Source: Phreatobacter cathodiphilus
Lineage (GTDB): Bacteria > Pseudomonadota > Alphaproteobacteria > Rhizobiales > Phreatobacteraceae
Assembly (NCBI RefSeq): GCF_003008515.1
Contig: NZ_CP027668.1
Span: 496,001-560,000 of the forward strand
Length of the DNA stretch: 64,000 bases
Direction of reading: 5' to 3'
Shown here: one piece after another, positions 427 through 44,787 of the stretch
How the letters are laid out: every line of letters begins with the position of its first letter
Position numbering within the stretch: the stretch's first letter is position 1
Made by a program: the position numbers and the translations under genes
Notes under the pieces: generated by a model
Database searches by the model: none
What the model was told of the DNA's origin: nothing
Seen by the model: only the letters and a program-made list of their open reading frames with translations

Positions 427-1002
427 TCAGCCCGGGTCACCCGCCGGCGCCCGCCAGGTGCGGATGGCCGGCGCCCGGGCCGGCCCTGTCGCCGTCTCGC
501 CCAGACCATAGGACCGGGCGAGCGTGCCGAGCGCCAGCTTGAGCACGACCTTGCCGGCCCTGAGCGGCCAGCGCCGCTCGCGCTCGGCCTCCTCCAGTCC
601 CTTGAGGAAGCCGCAGACGTCGAGGAGCAGGGAGGCGAAATCCGGTCCGACGGCGGCGATCGCCCGGTCGAGCCGCTGTTTCGCCGCGACCACGACATCC
701 GCATAGTCCGGTCCCGACCCCGCAGGCCGCCCGCCGGAGACCGGCGCCGCCCAGGTGGCGCCGAGCCGCGGCGAGAGGCCCGCCAGTGTGAAGTCGCGAC
801 GGAAGCGCTCGCCGGCCTCGACCTCGGTGGATGACAGGAAGGGCCGGCCCGCCGCATCCTTCCGGCTGGCGAGCCAGCGCAGCGGGCTCTCCGTGAGGTC
901 GATCTCCACCGGCCCCTCCGGCCCCTCCACCAGAGCGCGCTCCTGATGGGCGCGCCGGAAGCGGTCCGCATCGTCGCCGGCCTGGCCTCGCGCACCGGTC
1001 AT
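427..1002 (-). CDS. DUF6456 domain protein
   Basis: 191 residues. A segment starting ESPLRWLASRKDAAGRPFLS and ending LLLDVCGFLKGLEEAERERR / RAGKVVLKLALGTLARSYGL matches the alphaproteobacterial DUF6456 family, of unknown biochemical role. Its ATG overlaps the stop of the upstream HTH gene by 4 bases (ATGA) and has GGAGGG about 8 bases upstream, so the two are co-translated. In many relatives the DnaA-like HTH and DUF6456 are fused in one protein, so the pair probably acts as one regulator. Function is inferred only from this arrangement. Confidence 0.75.
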   Translation of the reverse strand: MTGARGQAGDDADRFRRAHQERALVEGPEGPVEIDLTESPLRWLASRKDAAGRPFLSSTEVEAGERFRRDFTLAGLSPRLGATWAAPVSGGRPAGSGPDYADVVVAAKQRLDRAIAAVGPDFASLLLDVCGFLKGLEEAERERRWPLRAGKVVLKLALGTLARSYGLGETATGPARAPAIRTWRAPAGDPG

Positions 1003-1367
1003 CGGCAGCGCCCTCCGACGGTGACGCGCTCGCGCCGCAGCGGCATCAGGATGGCTTCCAGCCCGGTGAGCTGCCGGTCGAAGGCGGGATCGTCGCGCTC
1101 GTCCTCGATCCGGCGCAGGGCATGACGGAGCGTGGCGCGGTCGCGACCGAAGGCGGCGGCGAGCCGTGTCAGCTCATAGCCGAGCGCGACATGGGCCAGG
1201 TAGATCGCGAGCTGACGCGCCGCCGCCACCTGGGCGCCGCCACGGCTTGCCCCGAAGAGAGCGAGGCGGTCCACCCCGGCGACCCAGGCAGCGAGCGCCG
1301 CGGCGACATCGATCCCGGCCTCTCCGGGCCTCGCGGACCTGGAAGGCGGCGAGAGGTGAGGGGACAT
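999..1367 (-). CDS. DnaA domain IV-like helix-turn-helix protein
   Basis: 122 residues from the ATG at 1367, chosen because GGAGG lies just upstream; an in-frame extension to 1508 has no such site. The central segment RQLAIYLAHVALGYELTRLAAAFGRDRATLRHALRRIEDER resembles the DNA-binding domain IV of DnaA (R..A.YL...G......FGRDR.T..HA..RI) but there is no AAA+ domain, so it is a DNA-binding regulator and not an initiator. It is the first gene of an operon with the DUF6456 gene. Confidence 0.7.
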   Translation of the reverse strand: MSPHLSPPSRSARPGEAGIDVAAALAAWVAGVDRLALFGASRGGAQVAAARQLAIYLAHVALGYELTRLAAAFGRDRATLRHALRRIEDERDDPAFDRQLTGLEAILMPLRRERVTVGGRCR

Positions 1368-1592
1368 CGTTAGGACCTCCGTGAAAAGGACTACAATCCT
1401 TAAGAGCGGGAGGCGCAAGGGTAATAAGTTTTTATTCCTTCGGATGTCAGCAGGCTGTCGGCCCACCGGGAAATCGCGTCTTCGCAGGGACTTAACCCGC
1501 GGGTGCAACCGCCGGGAGGAAGAATCGCGGAAAAGTTGTCCCCATCATTCCCCTGCCCGCCATCCTCGCGCATGGACGCAAGGAGGATCGCG

Positions 1593-27005: not shown

Positions 27006-27044
27006 CTTGCGACGGAAAATAAATCGATTCTGAGAAAATAAGCC

Positions 27045-27073
27045 TTGACAGCGTAACGCTGGTCGGCTAGGTT
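27045..27073 (+). promoter_or_regulatory. sigma70-like promoter of the GTA locus
   Basis: TTGACA (27045-27050), a 17-base spacer and TAGGTT (27068-27073) make one of the best sigma70-type promoters in the window. A start about 7 bases after the -10 would fall at or next to the A of ATG 27080, giving a leaderless transcript. Confidence 0.6.
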
Positions 27074-27079
27074 TTCGTC

Positions 27080-27157
27080 ATGTTCGAGAATTGCGCCCGG
27101 CGGGGAAACCCCGGCCGGGCGTTTTTCGTCCGGCCCGCCGACGGAGGCCCGCCTTGA
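27080..27157 (+). CDS. possible 25-codon leader peptide overlapping a terminator
   Basis: An ATG at the predicted transcription start opens a 25-residue frame (MFENCARRGNPGR...) whose TGA overlaps the TTG start of the small terminase gene (TTGA). It has no ribosome site, consistent only with leaderless translation. The terminator hairpin lies inside the frame, so ribosomes on it would prevent hairpin formation. No homologue is known to me; inferred from layout. Confidence 0.35.
   Translation: MFENCARRGNPGRAFFVRPADGGPP
27094..27126 (+). terminator. terminator-like hairpin in the GTA leader
   Basis: CGCCCGGC-GGGG / AAA / CCCC-GGCCGGGCG forms a 12-bp stem with one bulged G, directly followed by TTTTT. 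It would end transcription some 45 bases after the promoter start, before any structural gene. Confidence 0.65.
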
Positions 27158-27630
27158 CCCCTGCCAACCGCTCCAGCCCCGAGACGGCGGCGCTCGCCCC
27201 TCCCGCCACCCGGCGGGGCGCGGCCGCCACCGTCGCCGCCGCGCTGCCGGGCCCGGCACCGACCGTGCCCGCAACCGCTCCCGCCGCGCCCGAGCCCTCC
27301 CATGCCGGCAAGCCCTGCCCTGGGCTCGCGGAGTGTCCCGAGCGGCCGCGTCTGGTGCGCCGCCTCTTCGCCGCCGCCGAGCGCGAGATCGAGGCGGTGG
27401 AAGCGAGCCTCGGCGGCCCCTCGGCCACCGCCGCCCGCCGCCTCGGCGCGCTCGCCGCCACCCTCGACCGCCTCGCCACCCTCGACCGCAAGGCCCTCGC
27501 CGTCCGCGACAATGCCGGAGAAGCCGATGCCGCCGTCACCGCGCCTGTGGACGCCGACGCCTGGGCTGAGGCGCTTGCGGCGGAACTTGATCCGGGCAAG
27601 CCCGGACCGGATCGCGGCCCTCGAGCCTGA
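27154..27630 (+). CDS. GTA gp1-like small terminase subunit candidate
   Basis: 158 residues from TTG 27154, chosen because GGAGG lies 7 bases upstream; translation would overlap the leader stop. The N-terminal half is Ala/Pro/Arg-rich; the C-terminal half (RPRLVRRLFAAAEREIEAVEASLGG ... LATLDRLATLDRKALAV) is the helical pattern of the gene before the large terminase in alphaproteobacterial GTA clusters. Its end overlaps the terminase start. Small terminases recognise or hold DNA for packaging; identification rests mainly on position. Confidence 0.65.
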   Translation: MTPANRSSPETAALAPPATRRGAAATVAAALPGPAPTVPATAPAAPEPSHAGKPCPGLAECPERPRLVRRLFAAAEREIEAVEASLGGPSATAARRLGALAATLDRLATLDRKALAVRDNAGEADAAVTAPVDADAWAEALAAELDPGKPGPDRGPRA

Positions 27631-28870
27631 GAAGATCGCCCGTCTCCGCGCCTTCTGGCCCGCCTTCGCACGCCCCGAACAGATGCCGCCGCGCGGCGGC
27701 TGGCGAGTCTGGGCCTTCGTCGGCGGCCGCGGCGCCGGCAAGACCCGCGCCGGCGCCGAATGGGTGCACGGCATCGTCCACGGCCGCGACGGCTTCGGCC
27801 CTAAGGCCGGCCGCATCGCCCTCGTCGGCGAGACCATCGACCAGGTCCGCGAGGTCATGGTGGAGGGGGTCTCGGGGCTGAGAGCCTGCGGCTTTCCGGC
27901 CGAGCGGCCCCGCTTCGAGCCCTCGCGCCGCCGCCTCGTCTGGCCCAACGGCGCCGTCGCCCACGGTTTCTCCTCGGAGGATCCGGAGGCGCTGCGCGGT
28001 CCGCAATTCGACGCCGCCTGGGCCGACGAGACCGGCAAATGGGTGCAGGCCGAGGCGACCTGGGACATGCTCAGCTTCGCGCTCCGCCTCGGCGAGCGGC
28101 CGCGCGCCATGGTGACGACGACGCCGCGGGCGACGCCGCTCATGCGCCGCCTGCTCGCCGATGCGGACACGGTGGTGACGCGCTCGGCCACCGCGGCGAA
28201 CGCCGCCAATCTCGCGCCGGGCATCGTCAAGGCGCTGATGGCGCGCTACGCCGGCACCCGGCTCGGCCGGCAGGAACTCGACGGCGAACTGATCGACGAC
28301 CGCGAGGGGGCGCTGTTCTCCCGCGAGGCCATCGAGGCCCAAAGGGTGGGTGCGGCGCCGACGCTGAAGCGGATCGCCGTGGCGGTCGATCCTCCCGCCT
28401 CCCACCGCAAGGGGGCGGATGCCTGCGGCATCGTCGCCTGCGGCATCGACGCGGAGGGCACCGTCTACGTGCTGGCGGATGTGAGTGCCGAGGGGCTCAA
28501 ACCGCACGAATGGGCGGGGAGGGCGGCGACGCTCTACCGCAGGCTCGACGCCGACGCGCTCGTCGTCGAGGTCAACCAGGGCGGCGACATGGTGGCCGCG
28601 GTGATCGGCGAGGTGGCGCCCGACGTGCCGGTGACGCCGGTCAGGGCGGCGCGCTCCAAGCACCTGCGCGCCGAGCCGGTCGCCGCCCTCTATGCGCAGG
28701 GTCGCGTCCGCCACGCCGGGCGGTTCCCGGCGCTGGAGGACGAGCTCGCCGATTTCGGCCCCGACGGCTTGTCGAACGGCCGCAGCCCCGACCGGCTCGA
28801 CGCGCTGGTCTGGGCGGTGACGCATCTGGCGCTCAGGCCTCGGGCGGAAGCGCGGGTGAGGGGGCTTTAG
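27527..28870 (+). CDS. GTA gp2, large terminase subunit (packaging ATPase/nuclease)
   Basis: 447 residues from ATG 27527 (GGAGAAG upstream; 27512 possible); the long upstream extension is a shadow of gp1. Walker A is VGGRGAGKT (residues 65-73), Walker B FDAAWADETG, and nuclease acidic residues are in VAVDPPAS and VVEVNQGGD. TerL pumps DNA into the capsid and cuts it. In GTAs it packages host DNA fragments. Followed by a gap with two palindromic repeats and by an accessory cassette. Confidence 0.93.
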   Translation: MPPSPRLWTPTPGLRRLRRNLIRASPDRIAALEPEKIARLRAFWPAFARPEQMPPRGGWRVWAFVGGRGAGKTRAGAEWVHGIVHGRDGFGPKAGRIALVGETIDQVREVMVEGVSGLRACGFPAERPRFEPSRRRLVWPNGAVAHGFSSEDPEALRGPQFDAAWADETGKWVQAEATWDMLSFALRLGERPRAMVTTTPRATPLMRRLLADADTVVTRSATAANAANLAPGIVKALMARYAGTRLGRQELDGELIDDREGALFSREAIEAQRVGAAPTLKRIAVAVDPPASHRKGADACGIVACGIDAEGTVYVLADVSAEGLKPHEWAGRAATLYRRLDADALVVEVNQGGDMVAAVIGEVAPDVPVTPVRAARSKHLRAEPVAALYAQGRVRHAGRFPALEDELADFGPDGLSNGRSPDRLDALVWAVTHLALRPRAEARVRGL

Positions 28871-30363: not shown

Positions 30364-30732
30364 ATGAAGCGAAGCGTCTCGACGTCCCCGATCAACTCGA
30401 TCCTCTTCATTGAGGATCGCCCCGCCTCGAACATTCCGGTTGTCGACCCGCCGACCGCGCCCGCCTGGGCCACGCCCGACTGCATCATCGTCAAGGCCTA
30501 TCCCGAACAGGATGGCCCGACCGACGTGCTCCTCGGTGACCACACCGATGTTGATCCGGGCCGTCCGCCGGACTTCACCTCGATGCTCAGGACCCCCGGT
30601 GGTCGCGTTCTGGTCAGGGACGTCCTGGATGAGGTGGTTGTCACCATGCCGTCGGCCAGAGACCTGACCCGCATCTCGATCTGGCTGAGCCATCCCGAAT
30701 GGCCCGACAAGGTCATCATCGGCCTCGACTGA
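30364..30732 (+). CDS. immunity-like protein, copy 2 (paralogue of the previous gene)
   Basis: 122 residues from ATG 30364, chosen because its N-terminus (SPINSILFIED) lines up with that of the paralogue (PPNPVLFLED). Conserved C-terminus WPDKVIIGLD. Same remarks on role as for the neighbour; extra immunity copies often accompany toxin loci. Confidence 0.55.
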   Translation: MKRSVSTSPINSILFIEDRPASNIPVVDPPTAPAWATPDCIIVKAYPEQDGPTDVLLGDHTDVDPGRPPDFTSMLRTPGGRVLVRDVLDEVVVTMPSARDLTRISIWLSHPEWPDKVIIGLD

Positions 30733-30764
30733 CTCCTTCACCCCGCCCCCACGCGGAGCCCCCC

Positions 30765-31550
30765 ATGTCCTTCCTCTCCCGTCTCCTCGGCGCTCCCGAG
30801 GCGAAGCGGTCGCGCACGGCCGCCCTCGTCGCGCTGTCGCCGCTCGGCCGGCCCGCCTGGTCCTCGCCCGAGCCGAAGCGCTTCCATGGCGAGGCGCTGG
30901 CGAAGAACCCGGTCGCCGCCCGCGCCGTCGCCCGCGTCGCCCGCGCCGCAGCCGAGATCCCCTTCCAGTTCACGGAGGGAGGGTCGGATGCCTCTGCCCA
31001 TCCGGCGGCGCTGCTGATCGAGCGCCCCAACGAGGGCCAGGACCGCGTGGCGCTTGCCGAGATGCTGGCGACGCACCTGCTCCTCACCGGCAATGCCTAT
31101 GTCGAGGCGGTGAGCGTCGAGGGCCGGGTGCGCGAGCTGCACGTTCTGCGCCCTGACCGCATGCGCCTCGTGCCCGGCGGCGACGGCCGGCCCGCGGCCT
31201 ACGATTATGAGGTGGACGGCCGGTCGCTGCGCTTCGGGCAGGAGGGCGCGGTGCCGCCGGTCCTCCACCTCACCCTGCCGCATCCCTTCGACGACCATTT
31301 CGGCCTGGCGCCGCTGGCCGCGGCCGCGGCCGCCATCGACATCCACAACGCCGCCACCGCCTGGACCAAGGCGCTGCTCGACAATGCCGCGCGGCCGTCG
31401 GGGGCCCTCGTCTATTCCGGCGGCGACGGCACCCTGTCCGAGGACCAGTACGAGCGGCTGAAGGCCGAACTCGCCGACAGCTTCTCGGGAAGCCGCAATG
31501 CCGGCCGCCCCCTGCTGCTGGAGGGCGGGCTCGACTGGAAGCAATTGTGA
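30765..31550 (+). pseudogene. GTA gp3 portal protein, N-terminal part (interrupted by mobile element)
   Basis: Codes for the first 259 portal residues, then three element-derived codons and TGA 31548. The HK97-type portal pattern is clear: N-terminal SFLSRLLGAP, LAKNPVAARAVARVARAAAEIPF, LIERPNEGQDRV.LAEML.THLLLTGNAYVEAV and the end LLLEGGLDWK. The family is expected to continue with a SPKDMDF segment, found 13.2 kb away at 44788. As it stands the product lacks the C-terminal third and should not form a working portal unless the element excises. Confidence 0.92.
31536..31541 (+). repeat. left copy of 6-bp repeat (attL core)
   Basis: TGGAAG, coding Trp-Lys of the portal, occurs here and at 44782-44787. 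Everything between is foreign to the portal. Likely crossover region of the serine recombinase. Confidence 0.75.
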
Positions 31551-31591: not shown

Positions 31592-33160
31592 ATGCACCAG
31601 ACCACGCCCCGACCCAAGGCCTACAGCTATCTGCGCTTCTCGACGGTGGAGCAGGGCAAAGGCGACAGCTATCGTCGCCAGACGGCCCTTGCCGAAGACT
31701 TTTGCCGGGTACGCGGACTCGACCTTGACCGCACCACCACCTTCGAGGACCTGGGAGTTTCGGCCTACTCCGGCAAGAACCGTCGCAAGGGAGCCCTGAG
31801 AGCCTTTCTTGATGCGGTCGAGGAGGAGATCATCCCGGAGGGAAGTTACCTGCTGGTCGAGAGCCTAGACCGGGTGTCCCGCGAGGCAATCCTCGATGCT
31901 CAGGCGACATTCCTGCAAATCGTCAACGCCGGGATCACTCTTGTGACCTTGAAGGGCACTCCTCGCGAGTACTCCCGGGCCACTGTGAACGCGAACCCTA
32001 CCGACCTATTGATCAGCCTGCTGGAGATGATCCGGGCGAACGAGGAAAGCGAGACGAAGTCCCAACGGATCAAGGCGGACTGGAACAGGAAGCGCCAAAG
32101 GGCCCTTGATGGCGAGGCGATCACCTCTCTAGTCCCCGCTTGGCTGGAGCGGTCGGGTAAGGATTTCAAGGTGATTGAGGAGCGCGCCGCCATTGTTCGG
32201 CGCATCTTCTCACTTACCCTTGAAGGAAAGGGGCAGCATGCGATCACCTCGCTGTTCAACAAGGAAGGGATCAAGCCGTTCGGAAGCGCAAAGTGGTGGC
32301 ACCGGAGCTACGTCCGTCTGGTGCTGCGAAGCCCTGCGGTCATCGGCACGTTCGTTCCCCATCGAATGGTCGAGGGCAAACGCATCCCGTTGGAGCCCAT
32401 CCGGAACTATTTCCCGGCAGTCATCGACGTAGAGACCTACGAAGCCGTCCGGGCGCTTGATCAGCCGAGGGCATCACCACCCCGCACCATCGCCTCGATG
32501 TTTTCCGGCTTGGTTCGCTGCGAGGAATGCGGAGGCCCGATGGTCCGAGCGCGGAAGGGTCAGCCCCCGAAACCGTTCTACTACGTGTTCGTCTGCCACA
32601 ACGCGAAGCTCGGCCAGTCCTGTGAATGCAGGACCGTCCGTCAGTCCGTACTTGAGGACGCCCTGAGAGCCGACTTTGTGAGGTTCATTGAGGAAGCCCC
32701 GACCCATGATGATGACCTCACAGCGCAGTTGGAGGCGGTCGAGGATGCCTTGAGTGAAATGCAGGGACGGGCCGCGAGGTTGGTCGAGGCAATCTCTCAA
32801 CGCCCGCTAGCGCAACTGGTTGATCGGCTTGCAGAGGTGAACGAAGGCGTAGCCGAATTGAAGGAGAAGCAGGCAGAGCTGACCGCTGCGTTCCGAGACA
32901 CCGCTCGACCAGTGATGCTCAAGCGGCTCGCTGACCTATCAGACCTACTGGAAAGCCAAGACAGCGAGGTCACCCCCCGAATCCAAGTGCAGTTGCGCCA
33001 GGTTCTGGACCACATCGTTGTCCACTTCGACCGTGAGGCGTCCCGACGTAAGCCCCGAGGCTACATAGAGTTCGTGTGGAAGGGGGGCGGCAGGTCATAT
33101 CTTGACTGGGGGCCGGTGTTCTATGCCGCGTCGATGCGTGACAGGCGAGCAAATCGCTGA
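31592..33160 (+). CDS. large serine recombinase (site-specific integrase)
   Basis: 522 residues, GAGGA before the ATG. Resolvase catalytic domain with nucleophile Ser17 in YLRFSTVEQ and conserved ESLDRVSR; a Recombinase domain (about 165-280) with HAITSLFNKEGIKPFG; a zinc ribbon CEECGG...CHN..LGQSCEC (about 312-345); and a coiled-coil (about 370-440). This is the full architecture of integrases that insert and, with a directionality factor, excise phages and islands. Its place just inside the left end marks it as the element's own integrase. No obvious directionality factor is recognised nearby. Confidence 0.95.
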   Translation: MHQTTPRPKAYSYLRFSTVEQGKGDSYRRQTALAEDFCRVRGLDLDRTTTFEDLGVSAYSGKNRRKGALRAFLDAVEEEIIPEGSYLLVESLDRVSREAILDAQATFLQIVNAGITLVTLKGTPREYSRATVNANPTDLLISLLEMIRANEESETKSQRIKADWNRKRQRALDGEAITSLVPAWLERSGKDFKVIEERAAIVRRIFSLTLEGKGQHAITSLFNKEGIKPFGSAKWWHRSYVRLVLRSPAVIGTFVPHRMVEGKRIPLEPIRNYFPAVIDVETYEAVRALDQPRASPPRTIASMFSGLVRCEECGGPMVRARKGQPPKPFYYVFVCHNAKLGQSCECRTVRQSVLEDALRADFVRFIEEAPTHDDDLTAQLEAVEDALSEMQGRAARLVEAISQRPLAQLVDRLAEVNEGVAELKEKQAELTAAFRDTARPVMLKRLADLSDLLESQDSEVTPRIQVQLRQVLDHIVVHFDREASRRKPRGYIEFVWKGGGRSYLDWGPVFYAASMRDRRANR

Positions 33161-33184
33161 CTACCCTTGTCCCGTAGTACGGCG

Positions 33185-34459
33185 CTAGCGTTTGGATGTC
33201 CTTTTGTGGCTAAAAACCGAATCCAACGGCGGCGGTGGCTCTGCATCAGACGCCGCTAATCGCCGAATGTCCGAAATGTACTCGGCGCTGATCCCACCGA
33301 AATCAATGTTAGCGATACTCAGGCGACTTTCCGGATGTTCGATCCCATCCAAATCACGCATAGAATCATAGTGGTATAAGGCCTGACGAAGTACGAGATT
33401 ATAGTCGTAACGGGATTTCTCTCGAGCGTGAAATTTGCGTATCTCCTCTTGGTACTGAAAGAATTCTTGTGCGTGGCGATGCATTAGTAGGCGGGCAGTA
33501 CGAGCGACCGGCTCTGGTGCCCGTTCACCGCCAAAGGCAACAAAAGATAGAGCCCTAGCAAACCGGAGTTTCTGTTTTTCGTCGGCCTGAACAACAGCCT
33601 GGGTCACGAACGCAGGCAAGTCTTTGATGGAGCGATACCGGAAGGGTGTTCGGGGGAAACCCCTTGACAAGTACCGGCCATAAAGCCCCCTCGGAAATAG
33701 ATCAAGAAATGTATCATAATCTTTAGTAACGTCAATTATTGTGGGAGCGAGCCGCGACGACAGTCCGTTTATAAAGTACCCGAAAAATACGTCTTTTGTT
33801 TCTTCCTTATTTAAAATATCATCGTCGATTGCGGCAATAAAACTCTGGAGTCTGTCGAAAGAGACCTTAACTGCAAAACGGCGCAGCCATTCATTGGCCG
33901 TTTTGTTTAAGCTTAAGTCAATCGGGTGGGGCGGAGCGGCTACTTGCCGACTGTGCCTCACAGCAGTTCGGAAACGTGAAATCCAGTAAGGCGAACTGCT
34001 CGGCGGTGTTTCAAACAACCCCCAAAACAAGCGTTTCAGTTCGTCGGCCTGCCAGTTTCGGGACCGCTCTTCCAATGCACCGGACTCAGCTTCGCTAAGG
34101 AGTTTGGTCAAGTCTCGGAAAACCGGACTATCATGTGCGTCAGCGGGCCAAAGAAACTGAAGGTTGCGCGGAGCTAGATCTCCGCTGATGACTTGGAAGG
34201 CGTTATTGATCCAAACCGGAATAGGGCATGGATCGCCTATCCGCAATTGAATCGGTTTCATGGACACTGGAAGAGATTCGATATTGTATTCGTCAGGGTC
34301 AACCAAGTCAATAAACTGAATGACTCTAAGGCTTGTATCGCTCTCTGGCACGAAAAGCGAATTGTAGTCTGGGTGGGTCACAATAGGCACGCCGATGCCG
34401 CTGGCTGTCTTAGTGAGCTTTATATATCCATAAACTACACCGCTCTCGATACGTTTCAT
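33185..34459 (-). CDS. unrecognised 424-residue protein, second gene of a two-gene operon
   Basis: 424 residues; starts in a 4-base overlap (ATGA) with the preceding gene, which suggests a stoichiometric complex or toxin/antitoxin-like unit. The sequence is soluble, rich in Arg, Asp, Phe and Leu, with no membrane helix and no motif I can assign (segments such as SRNWQADELKRLFWGLFE and SRYDYNLVLRQALYHYDSM look helical). The C-terminus ends basic (HKRTSKR). GC is clearly lower than the host genes, consistent with recent acquisition. A defence role is a guess from context. Confidence 0.7.
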   Translation of the reverse strand: MKRIESGVVYGYIKLTKTASGIGVPIVTHPDYNSLFVPESDTSLRVIQFIDLVDPDEYNIESLPVSMKPIQLRIGDPCPIPVWINNAFQVISGDLAPRNLQFLWPADAHDSPVFRDLTKLLSEAESGALEERSRNWQADELKRLFWGLFETPPSSSPYWISRFRTAVRHSRQVAAPPHPIDLSLNKTANEWLRRFAVKVSFDRLQSFIAAIDDDILNKEETKDVFFGYFINGLSSRLAPTIIDVTKDYDTFLDLFPRGLYGRYLSRGFPRTPFRYRSIKDLPAFVTQAVVQADEKQKLRFARALSFVAFGGERAPEPVARTARLLMHRHAQEFFQYQEEIRKFHAREKSRYDYNLVLRQALYHYDSMRDLDGIEHPESRLSIANIDFGGISAEYISDIRRLAASDAEPPPPLDSVFSHKRTSKR

Positions 34460-35241
34460 ATTACGATGCCGTTCTTTTTGTATATCGCGGCGACGTGCTC
34501 ATATATGGAATGATAGTAATTTTCAACGTTAAGTGGGTGAATAGGGTACGTTCTGATTGTTTTAGTTATCTTTCGGATGGCCTTTATTAGCTCATTGTCC
34601 CTAGCGTATTCATCAGGCATGACGACGCCGAGTATATCCTCTGAAGAAAGAGGGATATCTTGATCAATCTGAATTTCGATTGTGGCGGCGCGGTCATCGG
34701 TTTTTGCAGAGCCGTTGTCCTGCATCAATCGCGATACAGCCAAAACTTCTTGATGACGCGGACCAAGTGAATGCGTGGTGCTGATATCATCTAAGCTGTT
34801 CGGTTTACGTTGAAAATAGCGTTTCGGTTCACCAAAATAAAAAGAAATAAGCCTTCCAACCTGAGCCGGATCAATGCCGCAGTCGAACCGTTCTAGATCG
34901 AAAACCGTGACGTAGGCAGGCAGGCGACCTGACGCGAATGCGCCCGAGTCAAACGGGAAAATGCGCTTTATTGGCGGTAATTCGCTGAACCGAATGACAA
35001 ATACAAGAGGTAACTGCCAGAACGAGGCCTCTCCGTCGAAGCGAACCTTGTAGGCTGGCCTACCCACGAAAAGGTAGCAGAGTTTTTCCCCATGGAAAAC
35101 ATTGCAAGGGGTAGCCAAAATTTTCCCTCCCCCGACGATGTCAAAGATGTTCTTCGATAGCGTCGAGTGGGTCCAAGGTAGGTTGGTGGCAGTCCCGAAG
35201 TTTCCTGAGGCGAGCAAATCGCCCAGCCTGACCGCTTTCAT
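34456..35241 (-). CDS. unrecognised 261-residue protein, first gene of a two-gene operon
   Basis: 261 residues with GGAGG 7 bases before ATG 35241. Mixed alpha/beta sequence: CNVFHGEKLCYLFVGRPAYK and WQLPLVFVIRF, FPFDSGAFASGRLP, then a C-terminal helical part (NELIKAIRKITKTIRTYP). No family recognised. The compact YLFVGRP.Y and FPFDSGAF segments would fit a small catalytic or nucleotide-binding core but I cannot name one. AT-richer than the chromosome. Confidence 0.7.
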   Translation of the reverse strand: MKAVRLGDLLASGNFGTATNLPWTHSTLSKNIFDIVGGGKILATPCNVFHGEKLCYLFVGRPAYKVRFDGEASFWQLPLVFVIRFSELPPIKRIFPFDSGAFASGRLPAYVTVFDLERFDCGIDPAQVGRLISFYFGEPKRYFQRKPNSLDDISTTHSLGPRHQEVLAVSRLMQDNGSAKTDDRAATIEIQIDQDIPLSSEDILGVVMPDEYARDNELIKAIRKITKTIRTYPIHPLNVENYYHSIYEHVAAIYKKNGIVI

Positions 35242-35403
35242 ATAAAACCTCCGATTGAGCCAAAATGATCCATGTCGCCGCGGATGTGGTCAAGGGTCAA
35301 ACATTTCCCCTGCTTCCCTTGAGGACCCTCGGTGACGGCGTGTGATTGGGGTTGCGTATTCGTCAGAAAAGAACATAACAGGAACATTAGCTCGGAGAAA
35401 GCA

Positions 35404-35628
35404 ATGACCCAGCCACGCCACAGGGACCGCGAAATCGTGTCCGAAGCGATCACCGAAGCCGACATCGATGAGGTGCTTCAGGAGTTCGGTGGCGACACCC
35501 GGCAGGCAGTTCGGGCGCTGCTGGAGGACATAGCCGTCCTTGCCCTCGATCGGGCCAGGGCAATCTCCACCGGCTTCGTTCGTGGCCAGCGTTTCCATGG
35601 TGCCATCGACACCCTCAAGCTGCCCTGA
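35404..35628 (+). CDS. small acidic/helical protein, unknown
   Basis: 74 residues from ATG 35404 with GGAGAA upstream; the 24-codon extension to 35332 lacks a ribosome site. REIVSEAITEADIDEVLQEFGGDTRQAVRALLEDIAVLA is helical. Stop overlaps the next ATG (TGATG). Divergent from the unknown operon. No family recognised. Confidence 0.6.
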   Translation: MTQPRHRDREIVSEAITEADIDEVLQEFGGDTRQAVRALLEDIAVLALDRARAISTGFVRGQRFHGAIDTLKLP

Positions 35629-35858
35629 TGCCCCGCAATGTCACTGTGGCGGGAGCCAAGGCGGAGGGCGTGAGGGGCGCGTGGGTCCGTTGCCGGGCTG
35701 ATGGCTGCCGGAACTTCGCCTACCTGACTTGGGAAGCGATGAGGCTGACACCCGCTGACATGATCGATGACGTACAGTGGCGACTCCGCATCCGTTGCTC
35801 GGTCTGCGGCAGCAGGGAGGTATCCATCCGCCCTTACTGGGTCGAGCCTTCCTCCTAG
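35628..35858 (+). CDS. small zinc-ribbon protein
   Basis: 76 residues, translationally coupled to the previous gene. VRCRADGCRNFAYLTW and RIRCSVCGSREVSI give C-x4-C and C-x2-C pairs, a likely zinc ribbon. Overlaps the convergent HNH gene end by 4 bases. Might bind DNA or RNA; function unknown. Confidence 0.6.
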   Translation: MPRNVTVAGAKAEGVRGAWVRCRADGCRNFAYLTWEAMRLTPADMIDDVQWRLRIRCSVCGSREVSIRPYWVEPSS

Positions 35859-36757
35859 GTTGCTCTGAAGACCTCCCTGCGATGGAACTCTAGAGCAGCT
35901 GGAGAGGGCCAGACGGATGATCTTGAAGGAGTCCTTAGGCGCCTGTCGGCGAGCGATGCATAAGGTGATTTGGCCAATCGAGGGCTTACCTCCACCTTCA
36001 GTTCAGGGGAGACGGAGATAAGTCCGTCGTCGAAGAGGCGATGAAGATCCACTCTCAGACAAAGGCCATTCTGTGGGTGGTCGCTCAATGGGCTTACATA
36101 CGGCTGGATATGCGCGGCTTCCAGAAGTTGAGGGAGGCCAGTGCCGCTGACCGCACACTTGCCACCGTAGTTCTCGATTACAGCCTGCCGAAACGCAGCC
36201 TGGCCGGGGCGGTCTTTGCGGCTTGCGAGAATGCGGTTCGCTTGGCCATCCACCAGTGTGAAAGGGCGGCTGGGCCTCAAGAACCCTTCCATGATAGGCG
36301 ATAGCGGGTCCGGTCCGTCGAAGGTTTTGTACTTCACCACCTCGTTCGGAAACGTGACGCCGTAATCCTCAGCCCTAACGTAGCTGTCTTCGTCGAGGGT
36401 CACCAACCCACTAAGTTCGATACAGCCGATCACCGGGTCTTCGATGGGCCGATATGTGACCGACCGCTTCGTGGCAAACCCCGCAATCTTCTCGACCAGT
36501 TCCGACGCGCTGCTGACACCATTGCCCAACCCGTATGCCGCCCAAGCGTCCGCGGCCCTGCGGTCTCGGTAGCCCTCGAAGTTTCCAAAGCCGCCAATCC
36601 TTCTGACCGGGGCCTTCAGCATGAAGTACAGCCGGTCACCGCGTTTGAGGGACCGGACTCCCCATGGCGTTGGAGTCCAGAAATTCACGAGAGGGCCGAA
36701 TCTCCCCTCGTGCATCTGGCGGAACCAACCTAGGTCTGTGGGAGCAATTGCGAACAT
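35855..36757 (-). CDS. HNH endonuclease family protein
   Basis: 300 residues. The C-terminal half is an HNH_2-type domain: FRQAVIENYGGKCAVSGTG, EAAHIQPY, and the conserved NGLCLRVDLHRLFDDGLISV. The N-terminal 150 residues (FWTPTPWGVRSLKRGDRLYFMLK; GGFGNFEGYR) form a PUA/EVE-like sensing module often fused to such nucleases and thought to read modified bases. Candidate modification-dependent restriction enzyme, by inference. Confidence 0.85.
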   Translation of the reverse strand: MFAIAPTDLGWFRQMHEGRFGPLVNFWTPTPWGVRSLKRGDRLYFMLKAPVRRIGGFGNFEGYRDRRAADAWAAYGLGNGVSSASELVEKIAGFATKRSVTYRPIEDPVIGCIELSGLVTLDEDSYVRAEDYGVTFPNEVVKYKTFDGPDPLSPIMEGFLRPSRPFTLVDGQANRILASRKDRPGQAAFRQAVIENYGGKCAVSGTGLPQLLEAAHIQPYVSPLSDHPQNGLCLRVDLHRLFDDGLISVSPELKVEVSPRLAKSPYASLADRRLRTPSRSSVWPSPAALEFHRREVFRAT

Positions 36758-36858
36758 GACTGGCAGTCATCCGAGATGGTGTACAAGGCCAAAATCTATC
36801 GCCCGGCGTCCTTGCCTATGTCGAGGCGATAGCTGATCAGCACAAGCCTGAGGTCCCC

Positions 36859-37512
36859 ATGTGGAACATCTACAGCCTAACGAAGGGCCAGCAGGCGATC
36901 ATCGAGCTGTCCCGGGCGCTTATCGACCGCACGGGCAATCTTCCCCCCATGCCAGGCATCTTCCCGGACTACCCGGCTCCTATCGTGAGGAACTGTGTGG
37001 ACGGTCGGGAGCTAGCCTTAATCCGCTGGGGTATGCCTTCGCCGCAGTTTGCCTTGAAGGGGAGTACTGCGGACCCGGGCGTCACGAACGTCAGGAACGT
37101 GGCATCCCCGCATTGGCGTCGGTGGCTCGGCCTGGAGCATCGCTGTCTCGTCCCATGGACGAGCTTCTCGGAGTACGGGACGACGCCCGAGGGTAAAAAG
37201 GCCCCGGTGTGGTTCGCGCTCTCTGAGGACCGCCCTCTGGCGTTCTTTGCGGGCATCTGGACGACATGGACCAGCACAAGGAAGACTAAGGAGGGCGAGG
37301 TGACCGCAGAACTCTTCGGCTTCCTGACGTGCGAGCCGAATGCCGAGGTTGGAGCCGTTCACCCGAAGGCCATGCCGGTCATCTTGAGGGAGCCTGAGGA
37401 GCTTAAGGTCTGAATGTGTGCGCCGTGGGAACAGGCGAGGGGGCTCCAGAGGCCGCTGCTGGACGGGGCGCTGCAAGTCATTGGCAGTGGCGCAAACGCC
37501 AGCGAGCGCTGA
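36859..37512 (+). pseudogene. SRAP (YedK/HMCES-like) abasic-site protein, broken
   Basis: The frame gives 184 residues to TGA 37411-37413, then continues open for 32 codons that read as the normal family C-terminus (APWEQARGLQRPLLDGALQVI). One TGG-to-TGA change would explain it. The N-terminus is MWNIYSLTKGQ where the family has MCN: catalytic Cys2, which crosslinks to abasic sites, is Trp (TGG for TGC/TGT). Other family parts remain (LIRWGMPS, HRCLVPWTSFSEY, FAGIW, PKAMPVIL). SRAP genes often accompany mobile elements and the SOS response. Likely inactive for crosslinking. Confidence 0.8.
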
Positions 37513-37672
37513 GAACTCTAGTGCAAGGCGCTGAAATTTTTCTAATTCACAAGGGATCACGGCTTCTTATGCTCAGCTTCGTTTAAAAAGCTCAAACCAG
37601 CCAGCGTTTCAGACAAAGTGACCATAGGTCCAGGCTGTCGTGTAGTGGGACAGCCTCCAGACCGTTTCCATC

Positions 37673-38335
37673 CTAAAGGCCGGCTGCCGCACGGCAACTA
37701 GCGTGAAATCGGGAGAGGCTCGGCGAGTGAGTCATAGCTGTCTGCAAAACTTGGGGTCGAGCAAGCTCTCTCGAAATATTGCTGTAAGCGCGGTGCTCTT
37801 TTTGCATTCTAATTCGCTTATGAGAAAGAATACGTCGAAGCCGATTTTCACAGTTTAAAGTCGCTTTGCGATCAACATCTCTTTCGGCGTAAATAGGTAA
37901 TATCCAGCATTCAATTGTGTGAACAGAAATTGCAAAAATTACAGGTTTATTTAGTGCTTCTAATCTATTGGCTCCTATTTTCTCGATGCATGTATCGATA
38001 AGTTCTTTGGAGAATTGTGCGCAGTCTCGTTGTCCGCCGTCCTCATCAACTCGAATGTTTATGTTGGTATGTGAGCAGCAGTCGCTATCAAGGTGAATTA
38101 CGATAAAATCGTTGGCTTCTGCAGCTGTCTCCAAAAGCTCGGAGCAGCATTTCTCAAGGACGAGTTCCCAGCCCGCGTGCGGAGCCTGCCATCTTTGATG
38201 CGTTGCATCGCGCATTGGTTGAACGGGGTTGACCTGAATCTGCCATTCTTGATCGCCGAAGACCCCATGCAGCACATTTGTCAGGACGGACTGATCGGTG
38301 ACGCCCTCGGTAAAAAGCGCAAACGTCTTAATCAT
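37673..38335 (-). CDS. TOPRIM-fold-like partner of the AAA ATPase
   Basis: 220 residues; ATG overlaps the ATPase stop by 4 bases. FALFTEGVTDQSVL (Glu10) and FIVIHLDSDC (Asp83, Asp85) are the spaced acidic motifs of TOPRIM-like nucleases such as OLD/RloB/DUF4276/DUF4435 relatives. VISVHTIECWILPI follows, as in DUF4276-type proteins. With the upstream ATPase it forms a two-gene system of the OLD/PARIS class. I cannot say which subfamily. Confidence 0.7.
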   Translation of the reverse strand: MIKTFALFTEGVTDQSVLTNVLHGVFGDQEWQIQVNPVQPMRDATHQRWQAPHAGWELVLEKCCSELLETAAEANDFIVIHLDSDCCSHTNINIRVDEDGGQRDCAQFSKELIDTCIEKIGANRLEALNKPVIFAISVHTIECWILPIYAERDVDRKATLNCENRLRRILSHKRIRMQKEHRAYSNISRELARPQVLQTAMTHSPSLSRFHASCRAAAGL

Positions 38336-39576
38336 ATCGGTGCCAGCCCACCCAGTAGGCCGTCCAGGTAGTAGCTGGAGAGCTTGCGTGGCCTACCACT
38401 ATCGGTCAACGCGGGGGCGCTCACCTGGTTGATCCGGGTCTCCCCGAACGGACCTCTGGAGACGACGAAGAGCCGGTTCGCTGTGTCTGAGATATCAAGT
38501 CCATCAAGCACGGCCGGGCTATGCGTCGTGATAAATAACTGCTTTCGCCGTCGCTTTGCGGCTTTCGACATCGCGGTCATGAGCGCCTGGCAGAGGCGCG
38601 GATTTAATGACGTCTCGACATTGTCAATTGCGAAGATGCTTGGGGTCAGTCGAGAATAGACCAAGGAAAAATAAAACAATAGATAAAGAAATCCTTCATT
38701 GGCGCTACTTAACTCAAGATATTTGGTGTTTATTGAAAAAAATGTGTCCTTTAGTGCAATCGTTGTTGACGAATTTGATTGTATCAGATCGAAGTCGTCA
38801 AACCACTCAAGCATTCTCATGTCATTTTTGATTTCTGTGATGTCGTCTGCGAAGTCGCGCTGCATTACTTCGAGTAGCTTAAGAAGGCCTTCGCCATGCC
38901 GACCGAGCGGCTCGATTTGCCCTTCGGATTGGTAGAGTTGTAAGGATGAGTTCTCAGGTGAATACACAACAAAATTTGCCAAGGCCTCATGGCTCGGGAG
39001 CAATCGCAGCCACGAGCGGAGAAGGCTTTGGATTAAAGGATTTTCTTTATCGGCTTCCACCGAGATTTTAACTCGAAATCCACCATCTATCTTCTCGAAA
39101 GGCGCATCTTTCATCTTCTTGAATATAGAAAGAAGAAGCTCCTCGCTATTTTTTTTCTTCAATGTCGCGCTAGCTTGAATTTTTGAATAGTTCTGCAGCA
39201 GCTCTGTGAAGCTTATTTCTTTGGGGGCGCGACCATGATAATAGCACTCCCAGCGTCCATATGGCTCATTGTTATGATTAAACTCACAGGTGACTGTCCC
39301 TTCGTTCTGGTATTTGGCAGAAATCAGTATCGGTTTATTCTGCCCCTCGTCATTAAAGGCTGAGCGCATGTGTTCGGGGCGGGATACGCGCAGTCCGCGA
39401 GAAGATAGAAATTCATTATCCAGTCTATCTGCGCGAGCGGCACCAACGAGAGAGATAGCCTCGAGGACGTTGCTTTTTCCGGCGCCATTTGCGCCTATAA
39501 AGACATTAACTCGGCCTAGCGATATCGCCGAGTCGACTATTGATTTGTAGTTTCTGATGCGAAGGGTTTTCAGCAC
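38332..39576 (-). CDS. AAA family (OLD/AAA15-21-like) ATPase
   Basis: 414 residues from GTG 39576. Walker A GANGAGKS (28-35) after LKTLRIRNYKSIV, a mid signature region (LSSANEGFLYLL), Walker B with IFAIDNVETSLNP (Asn where DE is usual) and the H-switch ITTHSPAVLDGL. This is the SMC/OLD-type ATPase seen in defence pairs with TOPRIM or RloB-like partners. First gene of the operon; AT-rich compared with the host. Confidence 0.88.
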   Translation of the reverse strand: MLKTLRIRNYKSIVDSAISLGRVNVFIGANGAGKSNVLEAISLVGAARADRLDNEFLSSRGLRVSRPEHMRSAFNDEGQNKPILISAKYQNEGTVTCEFNHNNEPYGRWECYYHGRAPKEISFTELLQNYSKIQASATLKKKNSEELLLSIFKKMKDAPFEKIDGGFRVKISVEADKENPLIQSLLRSWLRLLPSHEALANFVVYSPENSSLQLYQSEGQIEPLGRHGEGLLKLLEVMQRDFADDITEIKNDMRMLEWFDDFDLIQSNSSTTIALKDTFFSINTKYLELSSANEGFLYLLFYFSLVYSRLTPSIFAIDNVETSLNPRLCQALMTAMSKAAKRRRKQLFITTHSPAVLDGLDISDTANRLFVVSRGPFGETRINQVSAPALTDSGRPRKLSSYYLDGLLGGLAPI

Positions 39577-39905
39577 GTTCTGGCAATCTTTGACTGCGGC
39601 GGGGTGCTCAGTGATAACACAACGGTTGGGAGCGAGTCAGATTCTAACTTCGCTGGCATAGATCACACCTGCTTGGCCTTGAGACGTCTCTCCAGCGGCG
39701 GTCGTGCCAAGCTTGAAAGTGGGCCTCCTGAGCATGCCTGCATCCCGGATGTTTAGAGCAACTATGCGAGCCGGCGTCGATCTAGCCGCACGACCGATAT
39801 TCCCCCCTCCCGGGGTGCCTCATGTCAGGTGCTCGGCTGTGTCTGGATGATGTGCGTTTCAGTTGGCACGCTGGATTTAGGTTCCTGTGCGTCCTCTTTA
39901 GGCTC
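39577..39905. other. 329-bp intergenic region, nothing coding seen
   Basis: Between the ATPase start and the resolvase stop. Short frames lack ribosome sites and protein-like composition. Should include the ATPase promoter; exact boxes not assigned. Confidence 0.4.
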
Positions 39906-40478
39906 TCACCCTACCGCAGTGACGCTCCTTTCCTTCGCCGGGCTGATGATGCGGTAAACCGAGGCCCTGCCGATGTTGAGCCGGCGGGCAATCTCGGTTG
40001 CTCCAAGGCCAGCCGCCTGCATCTCTTTGACTGCTGCCATATCGATGCTGGCAGGGCGCCCCTTGTAGACACCGGCCGCCTTGGCCTTCGCGATGCCTTC
40101 CATCTGACGTTCCCGCCGTAGGTTGGTCTCGAACTCAGCGAACACCCCCAACATGTCGAGAAACGCCTTGCCAGCGGCCGTTGAGGTGTCGATCGGCTGA
40201 TCCGTGGCTCGTAGGCTGCCACCCTTAGCCCTGACCTGCCGCACGATGTCCTGGAGGTCCGCGATGGAACGGGCGAGGCGGTCAACGCGGGTGACCATGA
40301 GCACGTCCCCATGGCGCATGAAGTCGAGGATGGTTTGTAGCTCGGTCCTTCCATCCACGGTGCTCCCCGACTTCTTCTCCTGACGGATGATGTCGCAGCC
40401 GGCCTTGTTGAGGGCTTCGATCTGGATGGTCAGGTCTTGGTCAGTCGTGCTGACGCGGGCGTACCCGTAGATGGCCAT
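39906..40478 (-). CDS. small serine recombinase (resolvase/invertase family)
   Basis: 190 residues. Catalytic Ser10 in YGYARVSTTDQ, conserved TRVDRLARS and the C-terminal HTH (AAVKEMQAAGLGATEIARRLNIGRASVYRI). This is the Tn3 resolvase/Hin-Pin invertase type. It acts on short inverted or direct sites near its gene. No terminal inverted repeats or transposase seen, so it is probably an independent resolution or inversion gene within the island. Confidence 0.93.
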   Translation of the reverse strand: MAIYGYARVSTTDQDLTIQIEALNKAGCDIIRQEKKSGSTVDGRTELQTILDFMRHGDVLMVTRVDRLARSIADLQDIVRQVRAKGGSLRATDQPIDTSTAAGKAFLDMLGVFAEFETNLRRERQMEGIAKAKAAGVYKGRPASIDMAAVKEMQAAGLGATEIARRLNIGRASVYRIISPAKERSVTAVG

Positions 40479-40917
40479 GCGTATGCTCCGGTGTCTCGTT
40501 TGAATCTAGACTCGGTAGCTATGGCGTCTTGGAAATCAGACGTCAACCCAAATGGGACGCCCATGGCGTCTCGGGGTTGTGCCTCGCATGGGTATACCCC
40601 GGAGAGACAATCCCACGCTTTCTGGCACGCATGCGGATAGCGGTGTCCCCACCCGCCCAGATATCCCCCACTCAAGATAGAGCGAACGCCGAGGTTGGCC
40701 TCGCCTGTCCGTTTTGGGACCGCCTAGATCCACTAGCCAAGAGACCTACTGGCTCGCGGCTCCGCGCTCCCACTGCGTCGAAGTTTGATACCCCCCACTC
40801 AAGCTAACGGTCGTCATGCCGTGGCGGCCTTCCATCCAGTTGCTGGCCTGTCTCAACCGCCTTGGTGTCTTTCCCGAGGCTCAATAGCTGCGTCCATGTA
40901 GGCGCTAAAGGAATCCC
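40479..40917. other. 439-bp region without supported gene, holding 20-bp direct repeats
   Basis: No convincing ORF. An imperfect 20-base direct repeat GATAYCCCCCACTCAAGMTA occurs at 40660-40679 and 40787-40806. It lies upstream of the resolvase, so may be a target or regulatory repeat. Confidence 0.4.
40660..40806. repeat. imperfect 20-bp direct repeat pair
   Basis: GATATCCCCCACTCAAGATA (40660-40679) and GATACCCCCCACTCAAGCTA (40787-40806): 18 of 20 bases identical, 127 bases apart. Confidence 0.7.
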
Positions 40918-41229
40918 ATGTCTTCCGCCCTCAACTCCGTCATCTGCCCGAACTCCGCTCGTTCGGCCGCCGCTGTCGACATCAGCTTCTGCGATGAGTT
41001 CAGCGCCCAGAACTTCCGTAGCATGCCGGTCGGAGCGTGGGCCTTCGCCAGTCAGAAACGCGGCGCGCCCTTTGCAGTTCTTCGTCATCCTGAGGATGGA
41101 TGGGTGGCGTTCGGTCTCCGCGGGACCAAGGGTCCGAGAAGCTTTAAGGAAGCTCCGCGCACGTGGTCGTTCCTGCGCTCCGCAGTTGCCGGAGAAAAGA
41201 TCACCGTCGCAATGAGTCACGCCGACTGA
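40918..41229 (+). CDS. unknown small protein, 103 residues
   Basis: AAAGGAA lies just before ATG 40918. Contains a compact middle (FRSMPVGAWAFASQKRGAPFAVLRHPEDGWVAFGLRG) that reads like a small beta-rich domain. No family recognised. First gene of the replication-like module that continues with the zinc-finger, helicase and RNase H genes. Confidence 0.55.
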   Translation: MSSALNSVICPNSARSAAAVDISFCDEFSAQNFRSMPVGAWAFASQKRGAPFAVLRHPEDGWVAFGLRGTKGPRSFKEAPRTWSFLRSAVAGEKITVAMSHAD

Positions 41230-41279
41230 TTGCAGGCACTGCCTATCGACTTCTCCATTGAACCGCGCCTGTCCCTTAG

Positions 41280-41984
41280 GGGGCGGGCGCAACTCTCTGC
41301 CGTCTGACAAATCTCAGAAAGTTCACGACTATTTGCCGTGCACTCGGATGCGGTGCCCGAACGACCCGCTATGGGCGCTACTGCAACACCCACAAGTCCC
41401 GCCTTCGACGCCATGGAGACGTTGAACAAGAAGCCATCACCAAGACCGACCTCAAGCCATATCTCGACCTCATCGAACGAAGGAGACTGACCAATCCCGC
41501 CAACCCCTTCTGGACCGCCCTCCAAGAGCGCTGGAGTAGTGTCTGCAAAGACGCGGAAGCCACCATCGCCTTCCTGTCGACCAGGGCTGGCCTCAGGTCC
41601 GACCTCCAATCCGCCAAAGAGGTCCTGAGGCTGCAATCATCCTGCGACCCTCGGGCCGTCATCGACACCACCATGGCCATGTTCATGATGCTGGAGATGG
41701 AGCCTCGCCGGTTCAGGACTGATGAAGCCTTCAGTCACCAACTCGTAAGGCGGGTGAGGGGGCTGACCGAGACCAATGCAGGACGCTGGTTCGACCACCG
41801 TTCCGGCAAGGTGAAGAGAGCCTATCGCGACCTCCCACCCCGTACAGCCAGAATCATGGCCAGCATTCTCGCCAAGGCTCTCGGTGGAGGTGGTCTCACC
41901 CTCGCCAAGCTCGAAAAGCGGGACCAGGAGGACCGTCATCGGTCTCGCCATGCTCTCGCAGACGGAGCCGCGACGCTGACCTGA
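41280..41984 (+). CDS. zinc-finger protein, start codon uncertain
   Basis: The frame is open from after TAG 41277-41279. Protein-like sequence begins near 41313 (RKFTTICRALGCGARTTRYG) and includes CRALGC...YCNTHKSRLRRHGD, a zinc motif common in phage and HNH-like proteins, then about 170 helical residues (FWTALQERWSSVCKD; FSHQLVRRVRGLTE). The first in-frame ATG is only at 41673, well inside the homologous-looking part; no ATG/GTG/TTG with a ribosome site precedes 41313. Either a non-standard start (CTG 41304) or a lost start. Confidence 0.55.
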   Translation, partial: GAGATLCRLTNLRKFTTICRALGCGARTTRYGRYCNTHKSRLRRHGDVEQEAITKTDLKPYLDLIERRRLTNPANPFWTALQERWSSVCKDAEATIAFLSTRAGLRSDLQSAKEVLRLQSSCDPRAVIDTTMAMFMMLEMEPRRFRTDEAFSHQLVRRVRGLTETNAGRWFDHRSGKVKRAYRDLPPRTARIMASILAKALGGGGLTLAKLEKRDQEDRHRSRHALADGAATLT

Positions 41985-41997
41985 GCCTGACCAAAAA

Positions 41998-42040
41998 GCC
42001 CCCGTGATGCATCAATCTTCTGCATTGCGGGGGCGTTTCT
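41998..42040 (+). terminator. terminator hairpin, first of a near-identical pair
   Basis: GCCCCCGTGATGCA...TGCATTGCGGGGGC followed by GTTTCTT. Same stem sequence as at 42094-42135. Confidence 0.75.
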
Positions 42041-42093
42041 TCCGTCCGGTCTGACCACCGGGCTGGAGCCCCTGACCATCCCCAATCCCAATC

Positions 42094-42135
42094 GCCCCCG
42101 TGATGCCAAAGAGAACGGCATTGCGGGGGCTTTTT
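42094..42135 (+). terminator. terminator hairpin, second of the pair
   Basis: GCCCCCGTGATGCC...GGCATTGCGGGGGC directly followed by TTTTT. Ends 18 bases before the helicase-like gene. Confidence 0.8.
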
Positions 42136-42153
42136 CATTTCTGGACCCCTCGA

Positions 42154-44046: not shown

Positions 44047-44134
44047 CGGCCGCGCCCGCATCTCCCTTTCACAACAACAACGGCCGCGCTGGCAGACCCG
44101 CCAGCGTGGTCCTCATCATTTCAAAGGAACCATC

Positions 44135-44623
44135 ATGACCATTCACATCATCGCTCCGCCGCTGCCGCAGACGCCTCATATCGTTGTCGCGACCGACGGC
44201 GCATGTCTTGGCAACCCCGGACCCGGAGGCTGGGCTTTCGTCTATGCCGGCGGAGGGCAGCAGGCCCAAAGGTCCGGCCACGAGGCCGACACCACCAACA
44301 ATCGTATGGAAGCCCGCGCAATCATCGAGGCGCTGATGCACCTTCCGCCTGGCGAGCGTGCCTGCATCCTGTCCGACAGCGAGCTGACCGTGAAGGGGCT
44401 CAACGAATGGCGGCAGGGGTGGAAGGCTCGTTGCTGGAGGAAGTCGAACGGAAAGCCGGTAGCCAACCGCGACCTCTGGCTCCGGCTAGATGAACTCGCG
44501 TCGGTCATGGGTGACGCTGTGAGCTTCCATTGGGTGCGGGGACATGCAGGCCATCCGCTTAACGAGGAGGCTGACGGGCTGGCCAACGCTGCAGCCGCAG
44601 AGGCGGCGGTGTTGGCGCTCTAG
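44135..44623 (+). CDS. rnhA: ribonuclease HI
   Basis: 162 residues, AAAGGAA upstream of ATG. The four catalytic acids are present: Asp21 in ATDGACLGNPGPGGW, Glu59 in NNRMEARA, Asp81 in LSDSELTVKG and Asp147 in NEEADGLA. It cuts RNA in RNA/DNA hybrids. An extra, element-borne copy fits a replication module with the helicase-like gene 88 bases upstream. Confidence 0.93.
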   Translation: MTIHIIAPPLPQTPHIVVATDGACLGNPGPGGWAFVYAGGGQQAQRSGHEADTTNNRMEARAIIEALMHLPPGERACILSDSELTVKGLNEWRQGWKARCWRKSNGKPVANRDLWLRLDELASVMGDAVSFHWVRGHAGHPLNEEADGLANAAAAEAAVLAL

Positions 44624-44742
44624 AGTAACTCAGAGGCAAAGGCGCCCGTCTTTCATCAGAGGGTGGGCACTTTTGTCGCTCATTTTTGTGCTGGAGGAGA
44701 GGGCGTTAGCGGACGCTGGTGGGACATATCCATCGTGCCATG

Positions 44743-44756
44743 CCAAAACGTTTTGG
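44743..44756. repeat. 14-bp perfect palindrome at the right end of the element
   Basis: CCAAAACGTTTTGG, followed by CAATTG. CAATTG also occurs at the left end right after TGGAAG. Possible recombinase, directionality-factor or regulator binding site. Confidence 0.55.
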
Positions 44757-44781
44757 CAATTGGGTGTGTCCTGTTAATAGT

Positions 44782-44787
44782 TGGAAG
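44782..44787 (+). repeat. right copy of 6-bp repeat (attR core)
   Basis: TGGAAG, in frame with the portal 3' part. Pairs with 31536-31541. Confidence 0.75.

Follow-up and report, generated by a model that had tools for sequence, protein, structure and literature searches.

A predicted antiterminator-loading promoter with a leader terminator ahead of the gene transfer agent cluster of Phreatobacter cathodiphilus

The stretch of DNA analysed here (hereafter the window) covers 64,000 nucleotides, positions 496001-560000 of the 4.49-Mb single-contig genome of Phreatobacter cathodiphilus, and holds a true RcGTA-type gene transfer agent (GTA) cluster with genes for the large terminase (TerL), portal, aspartyl protease, HK97-type capsid, DUF2460, BR0599 and NlpC proteins and a GTA_TIM protein. 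TerL, the second gene of the cluster (27584..28870, forward strand, start codon not fixed), was identified by the Pfam domains Terminase_6N and Terminase_6C, and its nearest named relatives come from a Phreatobacter metagenome-assembled genome (95% identity) and the isolate PHREA1 (89%), within the order Hyphomicrobiales. The preceding gene, g1 (27154..27630, forward strand, TTG start), matched nothing in Pfam or PHROG and is a putative small terminase based on its position ahead of TerL. By eye, g1 lacks the helix-turn-helix-like N-terminus of relatives such as the one at locus L044, and displays an Ala/Pro-rich stretch instead. A GGAGG Shine-Dalgarno sequence of its own (27143..27147, forward strand) precedes the TTG in the window and in five relatives, i.e. 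six of the nine genus members in the scan used. Further downstream, the portal gene lies in two pieces (30699-31550 and 44719-45162), separated by an element of roughly 13 kb (31592-44700) that encodes a large serine recombinase. Both junctions share TGGAAG, the flanks read in frame as GLDWK and ALSLSPKDM, and the portal gene is unbroken in relative L165. Given this interruption, the GTA of the window itself is probably silent or inactive unless the element excises, an event which could restore it.

Between csbD and g1, direct reading of the forward strand reveals a near-consensus sigma-70 promoter with a dyad in its spacer, a -10-like hexamer, a TGCG motif and an intrinsic terminator. The promoter described in the initial annotation is present, with a -35 hexamer TTGACA (27045..27050), a 17-nt spacer and a -10 hexamer TAGGTT (27068..27073) that together place the predicted +1 at A27080. 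Upstream of the -35 lies an A-rich box (27031..27040, consensus TAGGAAAATA), in which positions -49 to -40 reach up to 1.5 bits in a family-level alignment and which is possibly an UP element or a regulator site. The spacer is occupied by a 13-bp dyad, CAGCGT-A-ACGCTG (27049..27061; CAGCGTnACGCTG), a putative GafZ-binding element centred at -25, where symmetry is 0.74 compared to at most 0.48 at other centres, with weak pairwise covariation between its bases. Around the start, the hexamer CATGTT (27079..27084, -1 to +5), which includes an ATG at 27080-27082, is a predicted sigma-dependent pause element, and is followed by the elemental-pause motif TGCG (27092..27095, +13 to +16), with a predicted RNA 3' end at the C at +15 (27094). 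The terminator (27093..27126, +14 to +47) consists of a strong hairpin, GCGCCCGGCGGGGAAACCCCGGCCGGGCGT (27093-27122), and a TTTTT run (27122-27126); the folded leader reaches -43 kcal/mol, with a z-score of -2.8 against dinucleotide shuffles, in line with the full intrinsic terminator that had been proposed. A stock promoter scan and a stock terminator scan picked up neither promoter nor hairpin because of their fixed rules. All nine TerL-bearing genomes of the Phreatobacter clade that were searched, this one included, have the same promoter and hairpin ahead of g1 and TerL, which, along with the presence of the promoter across the order, settles the question of a chance occurrence. No known RNA family was found in the leader at Rfam curated thresholds, and the candidate STnc310 (E = 0.2, 19.8 bits vs a gathering score of 40) was dismissed as a chance match.

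The conservation of these signals was evaluated by searching for TerL in 61 genomes. TerL was found in 49 of them, and the promoter element was recognized upstream of TerL in 36 loci, or 29 at the family level once the genus was thinned. The family-level alignment is rich in information between -49 and +17 and drops to background level past about +20, with TTGAC (nearly) invariant in the -35 hexamer and T-12 and A-11 conserved in the -10 hexamer. A matrix derived from these first loci was then run on an independent set of 77 named loci, with Kaistia, Methylobacterium, Brucella, Rhizobium, Aureimonas, Xanthobacter and Methylocystis among the genera represented. Of these loci, 73 scored above 8, whereas the reverse strand did not exceed 7.0 and shuffled DNA did not exceed -0.5; in two of the four missed loci, the element lies further upstream. 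As a guard against circularity, sites were also located from positions -49 to -7 only, i.e. blind to the start region, which yielded 71 non-Phreatobacter sites; A+1 was then present in 70 of these and T+5 likewise in 70, while positions +2 to +4 vary. Pooling the blind-located sites with the first set provided 97 distinct promoters, among which A+1 and T+5 occur jointly in 91. A TGYG motif with its Y at +15 or +16 is found in 74 of the 97 leaders, whereas control windows placed further downstream contain it in 0-5 of 97. These genomes are related rather than independent, so that simple binomial p-values for such counts are inflated by relatedness.

Within the genus, the hairpin stem is nearly invariant (both sides changed in two of 13 pairs), and the U-tract is broken in three Phreatobacter relatives (L038, L040 and L041). 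Across families, we called a terminator when the hairpin-plus-U-tract score was at least 13 within 200 nt of +1, and obtained calls for 15 of 29 family-level leaders, compared to 0/29 reverse strands, 1/29 upstream regions, none of 29 stretches of g1 coding sequence and 5% of shuffles. Similarly, 34 of 71 independent leaders reached this score, vs one reverse-strand, seven upstream and no coding sequences, and a shuffle mean of 4.3. An intrinsic terminator thus separates the promoter from the first gene both in the window and in roughly half of the loci, far above controls, with the other half displaying no clear terminator by this score. Between families, it is the terminators and not the promoter that vary in sequence and position, a pattern that selection for termination itself would be expected to produce.

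Near the start of the window, on the reverse strand, lie homologues of two Caulobacter GTA regulators: gafZ (427..1002; DUF6456, PF20057, E = 3.6e-43), a putative antiterminator gene, and an overlapping gafY (999..1508; DnaA-type helix-turn-helix, Bac_DnaA_C, E = 3e-8), for which the TTG start used here gives the longest possible frame. GTA cluster, GafY and DUF6456 GafZ are therefore encoded in the same genome. A MucR/Ros regulator gene (PF05443, 1912-2448, reverse strand) adjoins the pair. Among the 61 genomes, GafZ (PF20057) and TerL co-occur in 46, with three encoding TerL only, four GafZ only and eight neither (Fisher p = 2e-5). The promoter element was detected in 40 of the 46 genomes with both genes vs none of the three with TerL but no GafZ (p = 0.005), these three being a small control. 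Of the six genomes with both genes but no element, one (G041) has its promoter split by an insertion; this insertion (locus L246) is roughly 2.3 kb long, lies within the dyad and has a short repeat at both ends. Elsewhere in the class, across 40 TerL-bearing genomes, two GafZ-positive genomes match the element, both from family f64 (scores 47.2 and 6.9), and all genomes lacking GafZ score below -5.9. Several other GafZ-positive genomes yielded no match in the consensus scan, hence the exact consensus is not class-wide. Judging from these alignments and scans, conservation of the promoter signals extends throughout Hyphomicrobiales and reaches one additional family of the class. Four contigs from viral collections also carry the element, with gafZ lying upstream of it, either directly or at a distance of up to a few kilobases. 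Separately, the phage or plasmid copies of GafZ comprised a contig labelled "phage", whose gene list resembles that of a chromosome, and two large replicons.

Antitermination by GafZ through an element in the promoter spacer is already known in Caulobacter, where GafZ acts as an antiterminator, its binding element lies between -35 and -10, and the GTA cluster needs antitermination (Tran and Le 2024, PMC11150451). The locus described here resembles the Caulobacter crescentus promoter PgtaT in its RcGTA-type cluster, its GafY and DUF6456 GafZ, and its inverted repeat between -35 and -10; mutating the Caulobacter repeat abolished GafZ binding (PMC11150451). In Rhodobacter GafA, the GafZ-like C-terminal part is dimeric and binds a fragment that includes the -10, the -35 and the start site. 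The location of the dyad is also that of the Q-binding element of lambda and of the AlpA-binding element. At the PalpB promoter of Pseudomonas aeruginosa, AlpA is associated with a spacer element, a -10-like hexamer and a terminator just downstream (PMC7969949, PMC9371919), the hexamer being CACGAT at -1 to +5, where antitermination was impaired when A+1 or T+5 was altered (PMC9371919). Lambdoid Q proteins at PR' (lambda, 21) similarly combine a spacer element, a pause 16-17 nt from the start and a downstream terminator (PMC6606751), and the -10-like hexamer and TGYG of the present leaders are features of a sigma-dependent promoter-proximal pause at this same lambda pR' distance. These likenesses do not extend to every detail: AlpA controls lysis genes and binds a GGGACG motif unlike the dyad, 21Q binds as two protomers on direct rather than inverted repeats (PMC6606751), and neither a common fold between AlpA and GafZ nor homology between lambdoid Q and GafZ was detected. 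Modeling of GafZ from a single sequence was poor (pLDDT 49). A model from an alignment reached pLDDT 79 and, compared to solved structures, resembled no antiterminator, including Q and AlpA proteins; its matches were sigma-28 (weakly, E above 1) and some phage proteins, two of which are named DUF6456.

Taken together, we consider it probable, by comparison with Caulobacter, AlpA and Q, that this is the late-type promoter of the cluster, with signals like those of a phage late promoter: a Q-type loading promoter at which GafZ allows a sigma-paused RNA polymerase to continue past the leader terminator and subsequent stops. The polymerase would start at A27080, sigma region 2 would re-bind the -10-like hexamer CATGTT, and the complex would stall near +15, where GafZ bound to the dyad could be loaded onto it. 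The GafZ-modified complex would then read through the leader terminator and later stops, and without GafZ most transcripts would be expected to end at about +45 to +48, leaving a short leader RNA. This model differs from the mapped Caulobacter arrangement in several ways. The Caulobacter terminator lies after the first gene and not in the leader, and pausing is not mentioned in the Caulobacter paper (PMC11150451), whereas a pause signature is conserved here. In addition, PgtaT has a degenerate -35 (AATCAT) and needs GafY and IHF, bound upstream, to start, unlike the near-consensus TTGACA of the window, which is nearly invariant among relatives. Since a near-consensus -35 made the Caulobacter promoter independent of GafYZ (PMC11150451), this suggests that control in Hyphomicrobiales may sit mainly at termination and not at initiation.

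The initial annotation had proposed that transcription of the cluster depends either on leaderless translation or on an antiterminator. A 25-codon frame does run from the ATG at 27080 to the TGA at 27155-27157 (27080..27157, forward strand) with the hairpin inside it, and its end overlaps the g1 start (27154) in a TTGA (27154-27157), so that translation beginning at the predicted +1 might open the hairpin and let transcription reach g1. Such a translational attenuator is nevertheless very unlikely, as it would require a start codon and a frame that relatives do not share: only 33 of the 97 aligned GTA promoters have ATG at +1, the others including ACG, ACA, ATC and ACC, and in the nine genus members the frames from +1 span 25, >80, >80, 24, 34, an ATT start, 26, >80 and 23 codons. 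The TTGA overlap is found in the window alone among these nine, and g1 has its own Shine-Dalgarno sequence. Moreover, among the additional genomic copies of the promoter presented below, 25 of 26 keep A+1 and T+5 and only 14 keep ATG. The anticipated conservation of the leader therefore holds for the hairpin, kept in the genus, but not for the frame, whose start, length and overlap vary, and we rejected a leader-peptide attenuator on these grounds. Because A+1 and T+5 are conserved where the ATG is not, and match the pause element, the "ATG" corresponds to A+1 of this element; on this comparative reading, it is a by-product of a CAnnnT hexamer, and the mini-ORF is incidental. Of the two gates originally suggested, it is thus the antiterminator that has strong comparative support.

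Two further explanations were considered. The hairpin could be a mere insulator against stray transcription, or the terminator of the upstream gene, with no controlled bypass. Its position between csbD and g1 fits this, and a terminator ahead of a costly cluster would be plausible without any antitermination. This is improbable given that the hairpin stands downstream of the very promoter it must spare, shortly after a conserved pause signature, and that terminators recur after the promoter at varied positions in about half of the families, with far fewer in the 200 nt upstream. Alternatively, the dyad could be the operator of another dimeric repressor or activator, and the start region could simply tune initiation or escape: GafZ binding is a prediction here, many repressors bind spacer dyads, and a MucR/Ros gene sits beside gafYZ. 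We assign this a similarly low likelihood, as the dyad is placed exactly like the mapped Caulobacter GafZ element, the promoter element tracks GafZ across genomes, and the coupling of dyad, -10-like hexamer, pause and terminator is the layout of Q and AlpA promoters. A loading promoter for GafZ thus remains the reading that we prefer.

Because GTA production kills the producing cell, a gate on the GTA operon matters. If GafZ loading operates as proposed, GafZ antitermination would no longer be confined to one species but would extend to an order with Rhizobium, Brucella and Methylobacterium among its members, and the alignments provide a base-level prediction of the GafZ loading site, with the dyad and a pause at +15/+16, for which the short leader RNA would be a readout. 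In Caulobacter, deleting gafZ lowered a leader reporter without terGTA about fourfold (PMC11150451), which GafZ loading could explain if PgtaT has a similar feature. Work by Korotaev, Niggli and Dehio on the Bartonella BaGTA reportedly concerns, from its title, antitermination of a gene transfer agent that is said to be chimeric and of diverse phage origin. Our coverage of the literature, which is partial and does not include this Bartonella work, yielded no report of the pause signature, of the promoter-proximal terminator or of the order-wide conservation.

Extra copies of the promoter element were detected in Phreatobacter, with two in the genome of the window (L002 and L003) and others in relatives (L094-L113, L133 and L084-L086), two of which have about 10-11. 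These copies mostly lack a terminator, and mostly lie between converging genes, pointing antisense. A tRNA-type promoter was considered for them and discarded, as neither L002 nor L003 contains a tRNA. Where sites are orthologous, identity is usually 76-100% within the element and mostly 55-85% in the adjacent gaps, one hisS site excepted. It is conceivable, though we hold this only tentatively and as rather doubtful, that this promoter, with its dyad, -10-like hexamer and pause motif, has reached up to about eleven additional chromosomal sites per genome by spreading and been selectively kept there, in which case GafZ might launch termination-resistant transcription at many sites during GTA production, or the copies might act as decoys that titrate GafZ. 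In a genome from another family (G046, loci L068 and L093), five exact copies of the dyad were observed; among the loci that were read, two have a short terminator right after the start, with no GTA gene recognized in their vicinity.
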